The translations under genes and the position numbers were made by a program. DNA of 64,000 bases from Marinobacter sp. SS13-12 (GTDB lineage Bacteria; Pseudomonadota; Gammaproteobacteria; Pseudomonadales; Oleiphilaceae): positions 434,001-498,000 of the forward strand of contig NZ_JASSUA010000001.1 of NCBI RefSeq assembly GCF_030227115.1, in the 5' to 3' direction. Shown here piece by piece: positions 98 through 10,020 of the stretch (within the stretch, counting starts at the first letter, position 1; the number at the start of each line of letters is the position of its first letter). The notes beneath the pieces are model-generated. The model saw only the letters and a list, made by a program, of their open reading frames with translations. It was not told the origin of the DNA and did not search any database.

Positions 98-730
98 TCA
101 ACGTTGCTTGAATTTCTCCTGTTCAATGCGCATGTACTCCGTCAGGGCAGCCAGCTCTTCGGAATCCCATTCCAAGGGCTCCGCTGCCATGGGAGCAACC
201 ATGCAGATCTGCACCATCTCATCCAGGTGAACCTTGTCCATGCCGAAATCGCTCTTGCCCATGGCCACAAAATGCGGGTATTCGTTGGAGAAGGTATCAG
301 CGTAGCCGGCACCGTTAGTATGGCAGGTCGCACAGGACAGGCCATTGGAAGACAATGAGGTATTGCTGAACAGGGCCTCCCCTTTTTTGGCCAGGGATTC
401 GGCATCTCCCTCATAGGGTTCGTAACCTTCGGGGCGGCGGACCGCCTCTTTCATGGCTTCAGAAGTCCCTTCGCCCTCGGCCTCGCCTTCACCTTCACCC
501 TCGCCCTCAGCTTCACCTTCAGCTTCTCCCTTTGCTTCACCTTCCGCTTCTCCTTTTGCCTCACCTTCCGCTTCACCCTGGGCAGCTTCCGCCGAAGGAA
601 TCAGCCCCAGTCCGTTTTCCGATACGGCTGACATACCCGCCATAGCCACTACCGTCATCACGGGCACCGACACCATAAGATTTCGGGAAAGCTTACGCAG
701 GAGTTCTTTACGATGACTGTCAGTATTCAT
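98..730 (-). CDS. c-type cytochrome with an internal EGEA/EGEG repeat
   Basis: A 210-residue protein. An N-terminal basic leader contains KELLRKLSR, followed by a hydrophobic stretch (about 19-50) ending in AEAAQ, which looks like an export signal. About 38 residues of GEAEGEAK/EGEG low-complexity sequence follow (about 52-88). The C-terminal part (about 95-210) is a small class I cytochrome c domain with one heme site, CATCH, and several downstream Met residues as possible axial ligands. A GGAGAG site seven bases before ATG at 730 supports the start. The leader and repeat nearly duplicate those of the small protein at 1483-1785, so I infer both are substrates of the same modifying enzyme (1850-4276). 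The heme domain is certain; the electron-transfer partner is unknown. Confidence 0.85.
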   Translation of the reverse strand: MNTDSHRKELLRKLSRNLMVSVPVMTVVAMAGMSAVSENGLGLIPSAEAAQGEAEGEAKGEAEGEAKGEAEGEAEGEGEGEGEAEGEGTSEAMKEAVRRPEGYEPYEGDAESLAKKGEALFSNTSLSSNGLSCATCHTNGAGYADTFSNEYPHFVAMGKSDFGMDKVHLDEMVQICMVAPMAAEPLEWDSEELAALTEYMRIEQEKFKQR

Positions 731-785
731 ATGAGCACTCTCCGATCGTCATTGATTCCTGTTTTTTTTGGCGTGAACTTCGGGT

Positions 786-1349
786 TCACGCGATTCTCGC
801 CATCTGCATTTGCAACTGCTGCTGATGACGCAGGGTTGAAGGGTGAACGCCAAACCCGTCACTGACTTCAACCCCACCCTGCTCCGCCAGCATCGCAATG
901 ATCGCCATGTGGTGAATGGTGTGGCTGGCCAGGAACACCAGTTCCCGGTCAATGCTGGTGGAAACCGTGCGCCGCTGCTCGTCACTGAGATGCTCCATCG
1001 TCAGTAGCGTGTTCTGTGGCACTTCAGCAAGGCGCCCCAGCGAATTGATGATCGCAAGAAGCTTGTTGCAGGCAGCGTGATTATCCAGCTCGAGCCTTTC
1101 CTCACGCTCCCTTTTTTCATAATCAAGGGGCCCTGCGGATTGTCTGTGAGCGGCAGTCAGAAGAGCCATGTAATGATCAATGATGTGGCGCACGTGTTTG
1201 CCGATTACATGCTGATTTTTCGCTCCGAACGTTTGCCGATACAGCTGTCCAGGCACCACAAAAAGCAGCTCTGCAAGCTGATTGATGGCGTGGGCATTTT
1301 CGGCAACGAGCTCTTCGCAATTAAAAGACCCGGAACTTGAATTTGGCAT
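786..1349 (-). CDS. DinB-fold protein, function unknown
   Basis: A 187-residue soluble protein with the four-helix pattern of the DinB/YfiT-like superfamily. Conserved His residues sit in GKHVRHIIDHY (about 50-60) and HTIHHMAII (about 143-151), spaced as expected for the metal-binding triad of that fold. Relatives include thiol-dependent S-transferases and the helical domain of EgtB-type enzymes, but this gene cannot be assigned a reaction. It lies between the repeat-tailed small protein and the repeat-containing cytochrome on the same strand, so it may act in the same process. The ribosome binding site is weak (GTGAAGAAC before ATG at 1349). Confidence 0.7.
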   Translation of the reverse strand: MPNSSSGSFNCEELVAENAHAINQLAELLFVVPGQLYRQTFGAKNQHVIGKHVRHIIDHYMALLTAAHRQSAGPLDYEKREREERLELDNHAACNKLLAIINSLGRLAEVPQNTLLTMEHLSDEQRRTVSTSIDRELVFLASHTIHHMAIIAMLAEQGGVEVSDGFGVHPSTLRHQQQLQMQMARIA

Positions 1350-1382
1350 TGTTCTTCACCCGTATCGTCTGGGTTGATTCGT

Positions 1383-1482
1383 TCACTGAAAGCGGCAGAT
1401 TGGCCCCGGCACCAGGGTCACGGAGGAATCCGGTTCACCCCTGGCCGGGCCACTGCCTTGTTCAGGTGCCGCAGATTCCGGC
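1383..1482 (-). other. Open shifted frame after the repeat-protein stop
   Basis: After the TGA at 1485-1483, the neighbouring minus-strand frame reads without stops to a TGA at 1385-1383. It encodes a Glu/Pro/Ser/Ala-rich stretch (for example EPESAAPEQGSG). Removing one G from the GAAGGCTGA context would join the repeat directly to this stretch. It could be a frameshifted former C-terminus, a sequencing error or chance. Confidence 0.35.
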
Positions 1483-1785
1483 TCAGCCTTCAGCTTTACC
1501 CTCTGCTTCACCTACACCTTCTCCTTCGCCTTCACCTTCTCCTTCGCCCTCGGCTTCGCCTTCAGCTTCTCCCTTGGCTTCACCCTCAGCTTCGCCTTTG
1601 GCCTCGCCCTCGGCTTCTGCTTCACCTGCGGCAAGCATCATGTACTCGCTCTCGGCATTCACTTCAGCAGCGGTAGCCGTGCCGAAAGCCGAAGCACCAA
1701 CCACAACAGCCAGCATTGGCCCGGTATAGGTGATACCCCTGGCAAGCTTGCGCAATAACTGTCTTTTCTGAGTATCTCTGGACAT
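1483..1785 (-). CDS. Leader-plus-repeat small protein, candidate modified precursor
   Basis: A 100-residue protein starting at ATG 1785, chosen because AGGAGATTAA precedes it at good spacing; an upstream in-frame ATG lacks this. The N-terminus has the basic motif KRQLLRKLARG, then a hydrophobic stretch ending in ATAAEV, like an export signal. The last third (about 57-100) is almost only Glu, Gly, Ala and a few Lys in GEAEGEAK and EGEG units, ending at TGA 1485-1483. The composition resembles the acidic C-terminal tail of tubulin, the substrate of the enzyme family encoded just upstream (1850-4276). I infer a precursor or scaffold whose Glu side chains or terminus are modified. The +1-shifted frame stays open past the stop, to 1383 (see findings). 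Confidence 0.7.
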   Translation of the reverse strand: MSRDTQKRQLLRKLARGITYTGPMLAVVVGASAFGTATAAEVNAESEYMMLAAGEAEAEGEAKGEAEGEAKGEAEGEAEGEGEGEGEGEGVGEAEGKAEG

Positions 1786-1849
1786 GGTATTTAATCTCCT
1801 TTCCATTTCTCTGGTTAACACCGGGCACAGGTATGCCCGGAACTTCGGG

Positions 1850-4276
1850 CTATTGCCCGAATGCTTGATCTACCTCTGACCTGTCCGCACCCGACAGCTG
1901 GTGCACCACAGCATCAAGATTATCTGTGGCCACCAGGTATCGGTCTGCTGTCTCGAGCCATTCGGCCAACCGCGAGAAACCGGCCGTATCCAGCGGACGG
2001 CCCTGAGGGCCACAACAGCCGGGGATGAGATAACGCAGGGCCTCACTCACCGATACCGCCTGCAGACCGTTCTCGTGTTGATCCGATGTCGGAACAGGTA
2101 TCAGAACCGTAGTAATGCGGTATTCCTGTGCAGCCACTCCCAGCGATGCTGGTTGCAGCGCAATTTCGTGACCCTCCGTCGGGGAATGCAGGGAAAAACG
2201 GCCCGGCACCTCAGGATCACCGGCTTTGGCTGAAGGCACCTGCGCTGGCAGACCAAGTGCAGACATGGCCGTGCCAGGCTCCGCAGGAATCCTCAGGGCC
2301 CGACCAAAGTTCGCATCAAGATGTTTGGCCAGGGCCAATGCCGGCCCGTCGCCAAGCCCGGGGTCACCGTTGGCAACCAGCACGGCACTGGATGGATCCT
2401 CCGGCCGGGTAACAAGGCCGGCGTCAATGATGATGTCGCCCTCGTCTGCCGCGTGCCCGGTGAGGCAAACCATAATCGCTGGCGCCACCCGGGACAGGGC
2501 GAGCCGTGACTGCATAACCTTGCCGTCGAGGATCAGGGTGTAGCCCGGGGTGTCTCGCACGACCTCAAGTCTTGAGCGGGAACCCGGGCTGCTTTTCGAT
2601 TCAAGCGGAACCAATAACGAGCCGATCCGGCCCACCACCGCGGGGCTGTCGGTAAAAAGCTCCACGTGGAATCCACCGCATTCGAGAACGGACGAATAGG
2701 GCTCAGACACCTGTGGAAGCGGAATATTCCCTGTAGAGGTGAGATCAGAAGCGGAGGTATCCCCAGCATTCGCGTGGACCAGAAAACCGTTGTTGGCCCA
2801 GTCCGCCAGCGAATTCCAGACATCCCGCCGAATGGCCCAGGCATCGGGCTCTGCGACAGAGTTCTGCCTGGCTGACTGGGTCAGGGCATCGGCGATATCG
2901 TCTGGCGGGATACCATCGGTGGCCATCAGCCAGATCAGCGATGCAGTTTCGTTCAGGACACTGAGATGCCCCAGCCGGGTATCGTAGACATACACCCTGT
3001 CCTCACTGATCATATCCTCGGCACGTCGCCGTTGCAGGGTTGGCTGGGTTAAACCGTTGCCAGAGAGGGCCTTGGCGACAACCCAGTCCTCCAGTCGTGG
3101 CAGTGTATAGAACGGCAGATAAGCCGCTGGGTTTTCCGAAGGCAACAGACGCTTGAAGTTACCTGCCCGGGCCTGCTCGTTTTCCGTTTCCAGGATCAGC
3201 CGTTGCTCCACAGACGCACCGGGAACGGTTTCACGCTTGCCATTCAGCCCCACCAGGCTTACCAGGTCCGACACCAACGATCCCTTGACGCCTTCTTCAA
3301 TATCACCGCCGCTCTCAGGTCCGGCGCATACTTCCAGAGAAGGGCTGAGGTTGCATTCCAGCACCCAGGGTTTGAGCTTGCTGTCTACCAGGCAGTCAAT
3401 GCCCAGCAGCTCATAACAGCCACGGGTATCGGCTCCCACCACTCTTGAACGTTCGCGCATGGATTCCACAGCCGACAGGCAGGTCAGGGCGACCATGTCC
3501 TCGACGCGGGCAAACAGGGCCTCGTCATCATGCCCCTGCTCTCTCAACCAGGCGCGGTAACGGTCCAGATCCACAAACTCCACCGGCACATCCGCGTCGA
3601 GGTTCAGCGCGTTAACATCGGGATTGGTGAGGTAACTGTAGGGATTGTCTGCGTTTTCCTCATCGTAAGGCGCAGAGGCCAGCTTGGCGAAGCCCTGGCG
3701 GTAGAGGTACACCCGCAGAGGCGCAATCGAGGTGACCGCAACATAGAGCCGCAAGACGTACTTGCGCCCGTGCATGGTATGAGGATTCTCGATGTACTCC
3801 TGCACCATCCACGACGAATCCATGGGCACATCAGCCGGGTCTTTCACCAGCTGGATGCCCTTGCCTCGTGCCGCGTTCTTGGGCTTCAGGATCCAGCGTT
3901 TGGAGGGTTCATCAAGGGCCTCCTGCTGGAAAGCATGATAGTCCCCGGGCATGGAGTAGACCCGCGGGAAAAACTGCAGGCGCTCGGCCAGCCCGTCGTG
4001 TCCGTTATCCTGCAGGCTCACCCGATCACGAAGCGTCAACAGGCTCTGATAGAGCCGGCTTTTGACGGTCAGGGCGTTATTACCGGGAATGTGATTGATC
4101 TTGCGCTCAGGCCCAACGTACCTGAAAAATTCCGGATCGGGCATGCCCGTGTACCAGCACGCATCCCAGTCGTCCGGGCTGTCGCCTTTCTGCCAGCGGT
4201 CTTTGTCCAGTGATGATTCGAAAAAGCGGTCCTGCTCGTAGGTGCGGTTGCCGCCCATCCAGTAGTGTCGAGTCAT
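1850..4276 (-). CDS. Tubulin-tyrosine-ligase-like ATP-grasp enzyme fused to PqqD/RRE and HPr-kinase-like domains
   Basis: An 808-residue protein; ATG 4276 is preceded by AAGGGAG. Residues about 85-345 are a TTL-family ATP-grasp ligase. It has WILKPKNAARGKGI (about 128-141), GRKYVLRLYV (about 170-179), ELLGIDCLVD (about 289-298) and WVLECNLSPSL (about 304-314), which match the ATP- and Mg-binding signatures of eukaryotic TTL/TTLL enzymes. Residues about 427-500 match PqqD-type recognition domains (VYVYDTRLGHLSVLNETAS). Residues about 525-800 resemble the HPr-kinase-like proteins that often accompany PqqD. Its would-be P-loop (GDPGLGDGPA, about 637-646) lacks the Lys and Ser/Thr. Family knowledge: TTL enzymes add an amino acid to a protein terminus or Glu side chain. 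Inference: the PqqD part binds the LLRKL leader and the ATP-grasp part modifies the EGEA/EGEG tails encoded downstream. Confidence 0.85.
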   Translation of the reverse strand: MTRHYWMGGNRTYEQDRFFESSLDKDRWQKGDSPDDWDACWYTGMPDPEFFRYVGPERKINHIPGNNALTVKSRLYQSLLTLRDRVSLQDNGHDGLAERLQFFPRVYSMPGDYHAFQQEALDEPSKRWILKPKNAARGKGIQLVKDPADVPMDSSWMVQEYIENPHTMHGRKYVLRLYVAVTSIAPLRVYLYRQGFAKLASAPYDEENADNPYSYLTNPDVNALNLDADVPVEFVDLDRYRAWLREQGHDDEALFARVEDMVALTCLSAVESMRERSRVVGADTRGCYELLGIDCLVDSKLKPWVLECNLSPSLEVCAGPESGGDIEEGVKGSLVSDLVSLVGLNGKRETVPGASVEQRLILETENEQARAGNFKRLLPSENPAAYLPFYTLPRLEDWVVAKALSGNGLTQPTLQRRRAEDMISEDRVYVYDTRLGHLSVLNETASLIWLMATDGIPPDDIADALTQSARQNSVAEPDAWAIRRDVWNSLADWANNGFLVHANAGDTSASDLTSTGNIPLPQVSEPYSSVLECGGFHVELFTDSPAVVGRIGSLLVPLESKSSPGSRSRLEVVRDTPGYTLILDGKVMQSRLALSRVAPAIMVCLTGHAADEGDIIIDAGLVTRPEDPSSAVLVANGDPGLGDGPALALAKHLDANFGRALRIPAEPGTAMSALGLPAQVPSAKAGDPEVPGRFSLHSPTEGHEIALQPASLGVAAQEYRITTVLIPVPTSDQHENGLQAVSVSEALRYLIPGCCGPQGRPLDTAGFSRLAEWLETADRYLVATDNLDAVVHQLSGADRSEVDQAFGQ

Positions 4277-4927: not shown

Positions 4928-5013
4928 CCCGGGTCTTTTCGATTCGTACGCACGTTTATCTAGGCCTGCGGGCCACGAGCGAGCGTTAACAAGCTTTGAA
5001 TGAGGAAACATCA

Positions 5014-6507
5014 ATGCGCATTGCCCTGATGGCGATCGTGATCGCCATGGCCTTTGGTCTTGGCTGGCTGGCCAGTCAGCAAATCATGCCAATGTTCGGA
5101 TCAGCCGGGTCCGGTAATCAGGCTGCTGAATCAGCAGAGAAAGAACCCCTGTACTGGGTTGCCCCCATGGATTCCGACTACCGCCGCGACAAGCCCGGCA
5201 AGTCCCCCATGGGAATGGATCTGGTGCCGGTTTATGAAGAAGAGGACACCGGCAGGGGCGATGGCGGAGTGCAGATAAGCTCTGCCGTCAGGAATAATCT
5301 GGGGGTCAGAACCCGGGCTGTTTCCCGTGGGCCGGTCACCATTCCGGTCCGCACGGTCGGCTATGTCACCGACGACGAGGACGAGCTGATCCACGTGCAC
5401 AGCCGCATTGCCGGCTGGGTAGAGGTTCTGCACCTACGTTCGCTGGGAGAGGAAGTCAGCCGGGGCGAGCCGCTGTACGAGATCTATTCGCCGGAGCTGG
5501 TGAATGCCCAGCAGGAATTCCTGATGTCAGAACGACTGAGCCGGGGTTCCCAGGCTACGGCAACTGGCGGAAAACTGCGGTCTCTCGGCATGACTGACTC
5601 ACAGATCGCCAACCTGAAAAAAACCGGCAAGGTCCGCGAACGCATCACCGTGTTTGCCCCCGGGTCCGGCTATGTGGCCGCCCTGCCAGTCCGTGCCGGC
5701 ATGTACGTGCGCCCGGATACCGAAATCATGGCCATTGGCAGCCGCAATTCCGTCTGGGTGATCGCCGAGTTCTTCGAGCGGCAAGCCGGCCTGGTCGTGG
5801 CAGGCCAGTCAGTGGCATTCACCACGCCCTCCATGCCTGGCACCAACTGGCAGGGCAGCATTGACTATGTCTACCCGGAGCTGGATGCCAGAACCCGAAC
5901 CCTGCGGGCACGGGTACGTGTTCCAAACGCCGACGGCCGGCTGCGCCCCAACATGTTCGTGAACTTCACCATGGACGCACCCATCGGCGATGACCTGCTC
6001 ACCATTCCGCGCCCGGCACTAATCCAGCTCAGCGACAGCCAGCATGTGCTATTGGCCGAAGAGGGTGGCTACTTCCGCCCGGTGCCCGTAAAAACCGGCC
6101 AGGAAGCCGGCGACCGGGTCGTGATTGCCGAGGGCCTGGAAGAAGGCCAGCAGGTAGTAGTGTCCGCCCAGTTCCTGATCGACTCCGAAACCAGCCTTGA
6201 AGCCGCCATGTTAAGACTTGAAGCGAATGAGCAAAGCAGCAGTGACACCCAGTCAGACAGTTCACCGTCGGAATTGATTGAAGGCGTCGGCCGAATCACC
6301 GAACTGGATAACGAGGGCGCCTCAATCACCCTCGATCACACCCCCATACCGGAACTGAACTGGCCCGCCATGACCATGGCGTTTGTTCTTGCCGATTCCG
6401 TGGATACCGGTGCCCTGGCCCCGGACCAGACAGTCCGCTTTGAATTCCGCGAGACCCCGGAAGGCTACCTCGTTGAACGTATTGAACCGGCGCAAGACGC
6501 GCAATAA
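5014..6507 (+). CDS. cusB: Copper/silver RND efflux periplasmic adaptor with fused CusF-like domain
   Basis: A 497-residue membrane fusion protein; ATG 5014 follows GAGGA. After an N-terminal anchor (about 2-25) comes the heavy-metal-binding element related to YxCPMHP...GxCPxCGM. Here the Cys are replaced, leaving WVAPMDSDYRRDKPGKSPMGMDLVPV, which is broken here as WVAPMDSDYRR then DKPGKSPMGMDLVPV. Barrel-sandwich, hairpin and beta-barrel regions span about 85-400. Residues about 425-497 form a CusF-like domain with LNWPAMTMAF. It bridges the inner-membrane pump CusA and outer-membrane channel CusC and hands over Cu(I)/Ag(I). It is the second gene of a tight operon. Fusion of a CusF domain to CusB is found in some proteobacteria. 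Confidence 0.9.
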   Translation: MRIALMAIVIAMAFGLGWLASQQIMPMFGSAGSGNQAAESAEKEPLYWVAPMDSDYRRDKPGKSPMGMDLVPVYEEEDTGRGDGGVQISSAVRNNLGVRTRAVSRGPVTIPVRTVGYVTDDEDELIHVHSRIAGWVEVLHLRSLGEEVSRGEPLYEIYSPELVNAQQEFLMSERLSRGSQATATGGKLRSLGMTDSQIANLKKTGKVRERITVFAPGSGYVAALPVRAGMYVRPDTEIMAIGSRNSVWVIAEFFERQAGLVVAGQSVAFTTPSMPGTNWQGSIDYVYPELDARTRTLRARVRVPNADGRLRPNMFVNFTMDAPIGDDLLTIPRPALIQLSDSQHVLLAEEGGYFRPVPVKTGQEAGDRVVIAEGLEEGQQVVVSAQFLIDSETSLEAAMLRLEANEQSSSDTQSDSSPSELIEGVGRITELDNEGASITLDHTPIPELNWPAMTMAFVLADSVDTGALAPDQTVRFEFRETPEGYLVERIEPAQDAQ

Positions 6508-6522
6508 CTACTGGAGAAAACC

Positions 6523-6816
6523 ATGAAGCTGAAAACATTGATAAGCGCCCTTGTTCTGGCAGTCACCCTTGCATCTGCATCGGCCATGGCCGAGCCCATC
6601 CAGAGCAAAGGCGTTGTGACCGCCGTCAATCCGGACAAACAGAAGATAACCCTGAATCATGAGCCCATCCCCGAACTGGGCTGGCCACAGATGACCATGG
6701 GATTTTCCGTAGCACCAGAGGTTGATCTGGAAGGCCTGGCCAAAGGCGACGAGGTCACCTTCTCTCTTAAGCCGGAAGGCAAGAGCCAGACGATCACCGA
6801 CATCAGCAAGCAATAG
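6523..6816 (+). CDS. cusF: Periplasmic copper/silver-binding chaperone
   Basis: 97 residues with a Sec signal ending in SAMAEP (about 23). The mature part is a CusF-type OB fold with ELGWPQMTMGF (about 52-62), where the Trp and two Met residues are known in CusF to form the Cu(I)/Ag(I) site. It delivers metal to the CusB/CusA complex. It starts 15 bases after cusB and duplicates the CusF-like domain fused to the end of CusB, so the operon carries two such domains. CTGGAG before ATG 6523 supports the start. Confidence 0.9.
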   Translation: MKLKTLISALVLAVTLASASAMAEPIQSKGVVTAVNPDKQKITLNHEPIPELGWPQMTMGFSVAPEVDLEGLAKGDEVTFSLKPEGKSQTITDISKQ

Positions 6817-6823
6817 CGATCAT

Positions 6824-6849
6824 CCGGGGCGCGATCACAAGCGCCCCGG
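6824..6849 (+). other. Strong GC hairpin between cusF and cusA
   Basis: CCGGGGCGC (6824-6832) and GCGCCCCGG (6841-6849) form a perfect nine-pair stem with an eight-base loop. No T-run follows, so it is not a typical intrinsic terminator. It may stabilise the cusF end of the message or attenuate cusA. Confidence 0.6.
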
Positions 6850-6873
6850 CCACCACCTGACCGGATTCAGCTC

Positions 6874-9800
6874 ATGATTAACGCCATTATCCAGTGGTCG
6901 CTTCATAACCGATTCTTTGTGCTGCTTGCCACCCTGATCCTGACCGGGTGGGGGCTCTATGCCGTCAAGGAAACGCCCATTGACGCCATACCGGACCTGT
7001 CGGACGTGCAGGTGATCGTCAAAACCACCTATCCGGGCCAGGCGCCTCAGGTGGTGGAAGACCAGGTGACCTACCCGCTCACCACCGCCATGCTGTCGGT
7101 GCCGGGGGCCAAGACCGTTCGGGGTTTTTCCTTCTTCGGTGATTCCTTCGTTTACGTCATTTTCGATGACGACACCGACCTGTACTGGGCCCGTTCCCGG
7201 GTACTGGAATACCTGAGCCAGGTGTCCGGGGACCTGCCCGACGCCGCCAGACCGGAACTGGGGCCCGACGCCACTGGCGTTGGCTGGGTGTATTCCTACG
7301 CCCTGGTGGACCGCACTGGTCAGCACGACCTGTCAGAACTGCGGGCCATTCAGGACTGGTTCCTGAAGTTTGAACTGCAGACCGTACCCGGCGTATCCGA
7401 GGTGGCCAGCGTGGGCGGCATGGTCAAACAGTACCAGGTGGTGGTGGACCCGGACCGGCTGCGGGCCCACGACATTACCCTGCAGCGCATCCACGCGGCC
7501 ATCAACAACGCCAACCAGGAAACCGGCGCCTCGGTGGTGGAGATGGCCGAGGCGGAATACATGGTGCGGGTCACCGGCTACCTGCAAAACGAAGAGGATC
7601 TGCGGCAGGTTCCCCTGGGTGTTAACGACAATGGCAAGCCCCTGTTACTGAAGGATGTGGCGGATGTGCAGCTTGGCCCCCAGATTCGTCGGGGGATCGC
7701 AGAACTGAACGGGGAAGGCGAGGTGGCCGGTGGCATCGTGGTGATGCGCTTCGGGGAGAATGCCCTGGAAACCATTGAAGGCGTCAAACAACGCCTGGAG
7801 GACATCAAGGCCAGCCTGCCAGACGGAGTGGAAGTGGTCCCCACCTACGACCGCTCCACCCTGATCAACAACGCGGTGGACAACCTGTACGGCAAGCTGT
7901 TGCAGGAATTCCTGGTGGTCATCGTGATCTGCGCGGTGTTCCTGTTCCACCTGCGTTCCTCACTGGTGGTCATTGTCAGCCTGCCGGTGGGCATTCTCGC
8001 GGCCTTCGTGGTGATGCATGCCCAGGGCATCAACGCCAACATCATGTCCCTCGGGGGTATCGCCATTGCCATCGGCGCCATGGTGGACGGCGCCATCGTG
8101 ATGGTGGAGAACGTCCATAAACACATGGAGCGAACCCCGCTGACACCGGAAAACCGGTGGGCCGTGATGTCACGGGCCGCTGGCGAGGTCGGGCCGGCGC
8201 TGTTTTTCTCGCTGATGATCATCACCGTGAGCTTTCTGCCGGTGTTCACTCTTGAAGCCCAGGAAGGCAAACTCTTCGCCCCCCTGGCCTTCACCAAGAC
8301 CTACGCCATGGCAGCGGCGGCAGGGCTGGCCATCACCCTGGTGCCGGTGCTGATGGGATATTTCATCCGTGGCAAGGTCTTGCCCGAGCATCGCAACCCC
8401 ATCAACCGGCTGCTGATCGCCCTGTACCGGCCGGTGATCGGCTGGGCCCTGCGGCGGCCGGCGCTGATGCTGGCGGGTGGCCTGGTGGTGCTGGTGATTG
8501 GCTTCTGGCCCGCCAACAAACTGGGCAGTGAATTCATGCCGCCCCTGGATGAGGGCGATCTGATGTACATGCCCACTACTTATCCCGGCATTTCCATCGG
8601 CAAGGCACGGCAGATTCTGCAGCAGACCGACAAGCTGATCGCGACTATTCCGGAAGTGGAGACCGTGTTCGGCAAGATCGGCCGCGCTGAAACCGCCACT
8701 GATCCAGCCCCGCTGACCATGATCGAGACCTTTATCCAGTTCAAACCCCGGGATCAGTGGCGGCCAGGCGTGACGCCAGAATCCCTGCGCCGGGAACTGG
8801 ACGAAACCGTCAGGCTGCCCGGCCTGACCAACGCCTGGGTAATGCCCATCAAGACCCGCATCGACATGCTTTCCACTGGCATCAAGACCCCGGTCGGCAT
8901 CAAGGTGGCCGGGCCAGATCTGGACGTGATTCAAGGGATCGGGGAGGAACTGGAACGGGTACTGGCCGATCTGCCCGGTACCGCCTCGGTCTTTTCCGAG
9001 AGGGTGGCGGGCGGGCGCTACATCAAGGTGGACATACAACGGGAGGCTGCCGCCCGGTTCGGCCTGAACATTGAAGACATCCAGGCCGTGGTCCGCACCG
9101 CCATTGGTGGCATGAACGTGGGCAGCACCGTGGAAGGCCTGGAACGCTATCCCATCAACCTGCGTTATCCCCAGGGCTACCGGGATTCGGTGGAGCAGAT
9201 GCGCCTGCTGCCCATGGTGACACCCAACGGTCAACGCATCGCCCTTGCGGACGTAGCCGATATCCGGATCGACAAAGGCCCCCCGATGATCAAGTCGGAA
9301 AACGCCCGCATCAACGGCTGGACCCTGGTGGATATAGAGGGCCGGGACCTGGGCAGCTGGGTCGAAGAAGCCCAGGAACGGGTGCGAAACACAGTGGAGC
9401 TGCCCGCAGGCTACTCACTCACCTGGTCCGGCCAGTACGAATACATGCAGCGCGCCAAGGAACGCCTGACCATGGTGGTGCCCCTGACCCTGGCCGTTAT
9501 CATCATCCTGCTGTACCTGAACTTTCGTAACCTGACCGAGGTGGGCATCATCCTGGGCACCTTGCCATTCGGGATGATCGGCGGTATCTGGCTGATGTAT
9601 CTGCTGGGTTACAACCTTTCTGTAGCCGTGGCCGTCGGCTTTATTGCCCTGGCCGGAGTAGCCGTTGAAATTGGCGTACTGATGCTGGTGTACCTGAACC
9701 AGTCCCTGCACAACGCTCTGGAGACCGTGGATCATCAGCCAGGGGAGTTGTCGGCAGATGCCCTGCGCCAGGCCATCAGCGACGGAGCCGCCCAGCGGGT

Positions 9801-10020
9801 GCGCCCGATCATGATGACCTTTGCCGCCATCGTTGCCGGCCTGATTCCTATCATGCTCAGCAGTGGCACCGGTTCGGAAGTGATGCAACGCATCGCCGGC
9901 CCGATGATCGGCGGCATGATCACCACCCTGATGCTGACGCTGCTGCTGATTCCGGTGATTTTCTATCTCTGGCAGCGTGCGCGTCTGAAAACTCTCGCCA
10001 GAAAAGGAACTACCCAATGA
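6874..10020 (+). CDS. cusA: Heavy-metal RND efflux pump (inner-membrane transporter)
   Basis: 1048 residues, the normal length for CusA/CzcA-type HME-RND pumps. The N-terminus IDAIPDLSDVQVIV is the family signature. A first membrane helix, two large periplasmic loops and two clusters of membrane helices follow in the usual order (about 340-550 and 860-1030). Proton-relay acidic residues lie in the region of the IAIGAMVDGAIVMVENVHK motif. A Met-containing segment, NAWVMPIKTRIDMLSTGIKT (about 648-667), and MYMPTTYPGIS (about 567-577) match the Met residues used by CusA for Cu(I)/Ag(I), which favours monovalent over divalent metal. It uses the proton gradient to pump metal to CusC. The next gene overlaps its stop by four bases. 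Confidence 0.92.
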   Translation: MINAIIQWSLHNRFFVLLATLILTGWGLYAVKETPIDAIPDLSDVQVIVKTTYPGQAPQVVEDQVTYPLTTAMLSVPGAKTVRGFSFFGDSFVYVIFDDDTDLYWARSRVLEYLSQVSGDLPDAARPELGPDATGVGWVYSYALVDRTGQHDLSELRAIQDWFLKFELQTVPGVSEVASVGGMVKQYQVVVDPDRLRAHDITLQRIHAAINNANQETGASVVEMAEAEYMVRVTGYLQNEEDLRQVPLGVNDNGKPLLLKDVADVQLGPQIRRGIAELNGEGEVAGGIVVMRFGENALETIEGVKQRLEDIKASLPDGVEVVPTYDRSTLINNAVDNLYGKLLQEFLVVIVICAVFLFHLRSSLVVIVSLPVGILAAFVVMHAQGINANIMSLGGIAIAIGAMVDGAIVMVENVHKHMERTPLTPENRWAVMSRAAGEVGPALFFSLMIITVSFLPVFTLEAQEGKLFAPLAFTKTYAMAAAAGLAITLVPVLMGYFIRGKVLPEHRNPINRLLIALYRPVIGWALRRPALMLAGGLVVLVIGFWPANKLGSEFMPPLDEGDLMYMPTTYPGISIGKARQILQQTDKLIATIPEVETVFGKIGRAETATDPAPLTMIETFIQFKPRDQWRPGVTPESLRRELDETVRLPGLTNAWVMPIKTRIDMLSTGIKTPVGIKVAGPDLDVIQGIGEELERVLADLPGTASVFSERVAGGRYIKVDIQREAAARFGLNIEDIQAVVRTAIGGMNVGSTVEGLERYPINLRYPQGYRDSVEQMRLLPMVTPNGQRIALADVADIRIDKGPPMIKSENARINGWTLVDIEGRDLGSWVEEAQERVRNTVELPAGYSLTWSGQYEYMQRAKERLTMVVPLTLAVIIILLYLNFRNLTEVGIILGTLPFGMIGGIWLMYLLGYNLSVAVAVGFIALAGVAVEIGVLMLVYLNQSLHNALETVDHQPGELSADALRQAISDGAAQRVRPIMMTFAAIVAGLIPIMLSSGTGSEVMQRIAGPMIGGMITTLMLTLLLIPVIFYLWQRARLKTLARKGTTQ

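Follow-up and report, generated by a model that had tools for sequence, protein, structure and literature searches.

A stretch of 64,000 nucleotides from Marinobacter sp. SS13-12 (contig NZ_JASSUA010000001.1, positions 434,001 to 498,000 of the forward strand; hereafter, at its full length, the window) encodes an 808-residue protein in which an ATP-grasp domain of the tubulin tyrosine ligase (TTL) family is fused to a PqqD-like recognition domain, and close by it encodes two proteins, one small and one a cytochrome c, that have the same N-terminal leader and the same glutamate-rich repeat, or tail. We think it probable that these genes make up a leader-guided tail-modifying system, in which an amino acid, most likely glutamate, is added to the side chains of the tail glutamates before export through the Sec pathway. 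By computation we find the domains, the fold, the conserved catalytic positions, the common leader, the tail pattern, and a near-perfect co-occurrence of enzyme and leader proteins over two classes of bacteria.

From these features we infer leader binding, the reaction, its glutamate donor and the order of events. The PqqD domain, a RiPP (ribosomally synthesized and post-translationally modified peptide) recognition element (RRE), would bind the amphipathic, signal-peptide-like N-terminus of the substrate, and the ATP-grasp domain, which resembles that of the TTL-like (TTLL) enzyme TTLL6, would use ATP to join an amino acid by an isopeptide bond to the side-chain carboxylates of the evenly spaced tail glutamates. 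Joining an amino acid to a carboxylate is what TTL-family ATP-grasp enzymes do; the donor would most likely be glutamate, judging solely by likeness to TTLL6, TTLL7 and TTLL11. Because ATP is needed, modification should precede export: the tail would be modified in the cytoplasm, and Sec export, leader cleavage and, for the cytochromes, haem attachment would follow. The product would be a set of exported cytochromes and a small stand-alone protein bearing branched, very acidic tails; as to their physiological role, one guess is that they handle charge or metals at the cell surface.

The preliminary description of this locus had expected TTL-PqqD fusions to co-occur with leader/repeat proteins, and they do: such proteins are present in 27 of the 27 genus carriers and for 48 of the 48 named loci of a wider scan (three of them elsewhere in the genome), and they were not found in enzyme-free genomes apart from a decayed trace in G025 and the incomplete G106. 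Matches to the enzyme occur in 29 of 124 genus genomes, two of which (G004 and G062) hold decayed remnants only (L057 and L058, excluded from alignments). Whole genes are present in 25 of the 27 carriers, and G091 and G095 carry the enzyme in two frames (L079 and L078); in G095 the switch falls at about residue 450–455, inside the PqqD domain. A leader profile, whose source sequences come from carriers within and outside the genus, matches at E<1e-10 exactly the same 27 genomes. Since it was built from carriers, matches in carriers are expected, and the telling part is the silence of the other 97 genomes together with the rest of the 27. The matches lie at 53 places, two per carrier genome (G083 has one only). 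All belong to the enzyme locus but for a single place in G107 and another in G040, two genomes in which the enzyme contig ends behind the small gene. In the enzyme-free G025, the leader match has an E-value of 6.7e-6 and the cytochrome is broken, with leader and haem parts in separate frames (L137). Enzyme and substrates seem to be lost together, since decayed remnants of both are seen (L057 and L058 for the enzyme, L137 for its cytochrome).

Beyond the genus, a scan with two short alignment-derived peptide patterns covered the contigs of 84,980 species, each represented by a single genome; relatives without those peptides escape it. The scan gave 48 named loci in Gamma- and Alphaproteobacteria, belonging to Marinobacter, Tamilnaduibacter, Competibacteraceae, Aquisalimonas and other Ectothiorhodospiraceae, Robiginitomaculum, Parvularculaceae, Marinicaulis, an alphaproteobacterium, Pararhodobacter and a Rhodobacteraceae. 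At 45 of the 48, at least one leader-plus-tail protein is encoded beside the enzyme, at a median distance of 68 and a maximum of about 1030 bases from the enzyme frame, the two largest distances being those of the two-frame genes L078 and L079. In a sample of 398 genomes of the phylum, searched with the family alignment, there are three strong carriers; four weaker matches (E 4e-5 to 8e-4), each spanning some 40 residues, were not counted as carriers. G578, a carrier from this sample additional to the 48 loci, has both a small protein and a tailed cytochrome of the SoxA type. Among 195 genomes the enzyme was found only in its own genus, and in an order-level sample of 124 genomes leader proteins appear at E<=0.001 in two only, both carriers of that same genus. 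The TTL family at large matches in 48 of the 398 phylum genomes, 43 of them above the family cut-off and four at E<1e-10; three of these four are TTL-PqqD proteins and one is not (G510). Most of the other phylum matches span fewer than 100 of the 292 positions and may be other ATP-grasp enzymes. In G510 (L223), the TTL domain lies in the C-terminal part of a long protein whose start, by eye, is glycosyltransferase-like.

What do the proposed substrates have in common? Three bodies carry leader and tail: a stand-alone small protein, SoxA/TsdA-type cytochromes c, and, in Rhodobacteraceae, a P460-like protein, so called for its resemblance to cytochrome P460 (PF16694, E 6.6e-5, under its cut-off). 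Since leader and tail are the only two parts common to all three, they should be the enzyme's concern, and we regard this as our best argument. Both window proteins stand as the preliminary description gave them, with an LLRKL-type leader and an EGEA/EGEG tail: in the small protein, the leader reads QLLRKLARG and the tail reaches the C-terminus; in the cytochrome, the leader reads ELLRKLSRN and is followed by the repeat and then by a CATCH haem motif. The two share the leader pattern [KR]xxLLxKLSRxxxYSxP, and the consensus over 62 sequences is xRxxLLxKLSRGLxYSxPxM, in which one Leu, the Pro and one Gly are invariant. After this motif the sequence resembles a Sec signal peptide, with a hydrophobic segment and small residues; by a rule of thumb (no predictor), a positive n-region is found in 72 of 73 sequences, a hydrophobic core above 1.6 in 62 of 73, and an AxA-type site, loosely defined, in 73 of 73.

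The tail itself is regular, an (x-E)n series in which x is Gly or Ala and every second residue is Glu. Among 1369 Glu-to-Glu steps in 74 distinct tails (those cut by contig ends counted), 75% are of two residues, compared with a mean of 23% and a maximum of 26% in 200 shuffles; a further 16% are of four residues, 2.8% of five, and 0.4% of one or three. Between glutamates two residues apart, Gly stands 547 times and Ala 464 times, together 1011 of 1029 cases. One could suppose that the tail is a chance product, a GC-rich minisatellite read as EGEA beside an unrelated ATP-grasp gene, and indeed there is a repetitive open frame on the opposite strand too, and the tails vary between species by insertions and deletions. 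We give this reading next to no credence and consider it refuted: Glu, Gly and Ala codons are mixed in both window tails; synonymous codon differences from the tails of four near relatives outnumber amino-acid changes in eight of eight comparisons (a soft measure, as aligning repeats favours identity); the leader is conserved outside the repeat; and the co-occurrence extends over two classes. The excess of synonymous changes suggests that the protein pattern of the tail is kept while the DNA drifts.

The position and composition of the tails bear on the reaction. Internal tails account for 37 of 73. Of the 33 C-terminal tails that are complete, 19 have G as their last residue, 6 A, 4 S and one each N, Q, K and Y, and none has Glu; the three tails that do end in Glu are all cut by contig ends. 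This points to side chains of Glu as the acceptors, the site used by TTLL glutamylases and glycylases, and makes TTL-type tyrosination at a free C-terminal Glu unlikely. Where the preliminary description had left Tyr, Glu or Gly as the transferred residue, C-terminal Tyr thus does not fit and Glu, by likeness to TTLL6, is the likeliest. A different ATP-grasp chemistry on acidic peptides is also conceivable, i.e. a graspetide-like cross-link between tail Glu and tail Lys, Ser or Thr, or LysW-like loading of an amino acid on a C-terminal Glu, and Lys does make up 8% of tail residues. We hold either to be very improbable: Lys, Ser, Thr, Cys and Tyr are all absent from 12 of 73 tail cores (a contig end truncates one of the 12), so that a general cross-link is unlikely, the internal tails and the C-termini without Glu speak against the LysW reaction, and the fold of the enzyme is of the TTLL type.

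Turning to the enzyme, the motifs RGKGI, GIDCLVD and WVLECNLSPSL named in the preliminary description are all present, and Pfam assigns the TTL domain (PF03133) with an E-value of 4e-56 and 190.8 bits against a cut-off of 20.1. Residue and domain counts are based on 33 full-length family members, L078 and L079 being excluded from enzyme alignments, and the TTL domain is found in all 33. It has a TTL/TTLL fold, nearest to that of the polyglutamylase TTLL6, and by sequence and fold the nearest solved relatives among the matches listed are TTLL6, TTLL7 and TTLL11, with TTL behind them; none of those matches bears the name of a glycylase, so the comparison says little about glycylases. Seven residues (K131, Q159, K172, R176, D294, E307 and N309), which we take to have roles in ATP/Mg binding, align with TTLL6/TTLL7 and are identical in 33 of 33 members. 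The PqqD-like domain of the preliminary description also holds up: the window protein matches the Pfam family at E 7.6e-4, and the leader-bound RREs TbiB1 and TfuB1 rank first in the PDB by profile and are also matched by fold. The third domain, which like the DinB-like gene was absent from the preliminary description, has a PEPCK fold; a Walker A motif was found in none of the 33 members, so this domain is probably not a kinase and is probably structural. No relative was found in IMG/VR viral contigs, and plasmids gave no match.

Several observations weigh against our proposal. The PqqD score of the window protein (20.2 bits) is under the curated Pfam cut-off of 23.4, and PqqD was found at E<=1e-3 in 17 of the 33 members, the window protein included, and not in the other 16. 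At three of the 48 loci (L082, L099 and L100), no proposed substrate lies in the fetched stretch; a whole-genome leader search and a P460-like query placed substrates elsewhere in these genomes. G583 encodes a small protein along with a SoxA-type cytochrome, and G581 and G582 each encode a P460-like protein; in these last two the leader profile gives a weak match (G581, E 0.0086) or none (G582), and leader and tail were identified from homology and by visual inspection. In G106, a genome of 76% completeness, a tailed cytochrome lies at the edge of a contig, and TTL-PqqD was not found. Ten more genus genomes give weak leader matches (E 0.0014–0.1), which we take as chance; the two inspected have no tail. 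Co-occurrence within the genus also partly reflects shared ancestry, and the named loci overlap the genus genomes. Lastly, the enzyme family departs from TTLL6 and TTLL7 at two positions on which these agree: where they have the Asp of FDLR, 33 of 33 members have Val (V174), and the Lys of LTNxxxNK is Ala (32) or Ile (1) at position 223. We take these changes, compared with TTLL6/TTLL7 only, to mark a divergent branch rather than to define the family, and they mean that handling of the donor or acceptor may differ from that in TTLLs. They speak for another amino acid or amine on the same Glu side chains, such as glycine, as in TTLL3/TTLL10. That fold alone does not fix the donor and that Gly and Ala already stand beside each tail Glu point the same way; since the nearest solved relatives listed are glutamylases, we judge another donor to be a minority possibility, and glutamate is still preferred.

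A further alternative concerns the tail itself, which could be a passive acidic or metal-binding linker, with the enzyme acting elsewhere on the same proteins or on another target and the linkage reflecting a shared pathway. Marinobacter genomes without TTL-PqqD have an orthologue of the cytochrome (56–71% identity over the haem part, 13 inspected) in which another leader and a Cys-rich repeat, NPCAxK, take the place of the leader and EGEA stretch; the cytochrome body therefore works without the (x-E)n tail. Additionally, the enzyme-free G156 has a long frame with an acidic stretch that matches the query tail. Against a passive tail, small protein, SoxA-type and P460-like bodies have nothing in common except leader and tail, both of which are missing where the enzyme is missing, and TTL-family enzymes are known for acting on acidic tails. 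We regard a passive tail as improbable and continue to favour a modified one.

The alternative repeat has a companion of its own. A gene of the DUF6969 family (PF22308) adjoins 13 of 13 NPCA-cytochrome loci (14 were fetched, L150 having no such cytochrome; at L143 the gene is partial), and DUF6969 was found in the fetched stretches of 0 of 23 Marinobacter-type and 0 of 25 more distant enzyme loci. It occurs in 33 of 124 genus genomes and in the same genome as the enzyme only in G115, where it adjoins a different NPCA protein, lipoprotein-like and with a phosphatase-like domain (scanned in the G038 homologue). In a phylum sample of 299 genomes, 10 have DUF6969; by eye, an NPC or other Cys-repeat protein stands at six of the 10 short loci (one locus is from the genus itself, and one of the proteins is P460-like, L251), and none was seen within the roughly 1.5 kb viewed on each side at L250, L252, L254 and L255. 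Overall, DUF6969 lies beside Cys-repeat proteins at L139–L149, L151, L152, L163–L171, L251, L253 and L256–L259, and these neighbours are SoxA-type cytochromes, a P460-like cytochrome, a phosphatase-like lipoprotein and small proteins. This looks like a second tail-and-enzyme pair. We tentatively raise the idea, which we think possible without quite expecting it to hold, that Proteobacteria keep exchangeable tail modules for exported proteins, each pairing a low-complexity repeat with a dedicated modifying enzyme: TTL-PqqD for (x-E)n and DUF6969 for NPC-type Cys repeats, both modules occurring on SoxA/TsdA-type and P460-like cytochromes. The first module would be a bacterial counterpart of the tubulin code on cytochromes, and DUF6969 would be a second, undescribed tail-modifying enzyme.

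In the window, four genes (open frames, Pfam) follow one another on the minus strand over 4276–98, in the order TTL-PqqD, small protein, DinB-like protein and cytochrome c, with gaps of 64, 133 and 55 bases.

Features of the locus in window coordinates; the leader profile behind the two E-values of 1.3e-15 itself includes both leaders.
Feature	Position	Strand	Evidence
TTL-PqqD fusion, 808 aa	1850..4276 (stop included)	-	Pfam, fold, translation
TTLL-type ATP-grasp domain	residues 1-390 = window 3107-4276	-	
PqqD/RRE domain	residues about 404-503 = window 2768-3067	-	
PEPCK-fold domain without Walker A motif	residues about 525-795	-	
Small proposed substrate, 100 aa, signal-peptide-like leader and C-terminal (x-E)n tail	1483..1785	-	translation, leader profile E 1.3e-15
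Small-protein leader stretch used in leader profile (minus strand)	1660..1767		leader alignment and profile search
DinB-like protein, 187 aa, conserved HxRHxxxH and HTxHHMA motifs	786..1349	-	Pfam DinB 2.4e-6
Single-haem c cytochrome of the SoxA/TsdA type, 210 aa, proposed as a substrate, with leader and internal (x-E)n tail	98..730	-	Pfam PF21342 4.3e-9, leader profile E 1.3e-15
Cytochrome leader stretch used in leader profile (minus strand)	605..712		leader alignment and profile search

In Marinobacter loci, an orthologue of the 100-residue protein adjoins the enzyme gene. The DinB-like gene sits between the two repeat proteins and perhaps has an accessory role; a homologue is present in the fetched stretch of 26 of the 48 named loci, all gammaproteobacterial. 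On the opposite strand, at 4996–10020 of the window, genes resemble, by eye, the CusB/CusF/CusA metal efflux system; a link to copper was considered and dropped because neighbours differ among TTL-PqqD loci. Around the cytochromes (L061, L088, L102, L106, L149 and L217), and mostly in Marinobacter, DUF3179, a radical SAM protein, an extracytoplasmic function (ECF) sigma factor, a C92 peptidase and a rhodanese recur, as does a VTT domain fused to a MerA-like flavoprotein; at L217, a zinc-finger anti-sigma factor and a DUF3179-like piece were seen by eye.

Taken together, co-occurrence and the TTLL6-like and RRE-like folds support the earlier suggestion of an RRE-guided TTL-type enzyme acting on Glu-rich tails. 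To our knowledge, chemistry of the tubulin-code type has so far been eukaryotic, and we know of no described bacterial system with the TTL-PqqD architecture, our one line of support here being that NCBIfam has no model near its cut-off for the enzyme. If the proposal is correct, this chemistry occurs in bacteria, aimed by a RiPP recognition domain at exported, electron-carrying proteins. It would offer a genetically simple system for asking how TTLLs choose donor and acceptor, a leader-addressable tool for glutamylation, and a hint as to the origin of TTLL enzymes, and it predicts steps of +129 Da on the 100-residue protein.

Among known systems, the polyglutamylases TTLL6 and TTLL7 (PF03133) are close: the ATP-grasp fold and the core residues are shared, and the likely acceptor is again an acidic tail rich in Glu and Gly, which also alternate along part of the alpha-tubulin tail. 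The enzyme described here differs in being bacterial and fused to an RRE, in the replaced FDLR Asp and LTNxxxNK Lys, and in its proposed substrates, which are exported cytochromes and a small protein. The graspetide (omega-ester/amide) ligases likewise activate acidic side chains by an ATP-grasp reaction within a leader peptide system, whereas the present tails do not all hold a Lys, Ser or Thr partner; these ligases belong to another ATP-grasp branch. LysW, with LysX/ArgX, is similar in the ATP-grasp addition to an acidic protein and needs a C-terminal Glu, unlike the tails seen here. With the PEPCK/HprK-fold kinases, and with the HprK-related gene groups that include PqqD, the enzyme shares a PEPCK fold beside a PqqD domain; here, however, this fold is without a Walker A motif and belongs to the same chain as TTL, and the absence of HprK chains from the 50 fold-search matches listed says nothing either way. 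Finally, RRE-dependent RiPP systems (PqqD and the lasso B1 proteins TbiB1 and TfuB1) share with this one the PqqD-fold domain and the short precursor genes with a common N-terminal leader beside the enzyme, whereas here the leader resembles a Sec signal peptide and half of the substrates are full cytochromes; we know of no RiPP class with a TTL-family enzyme.

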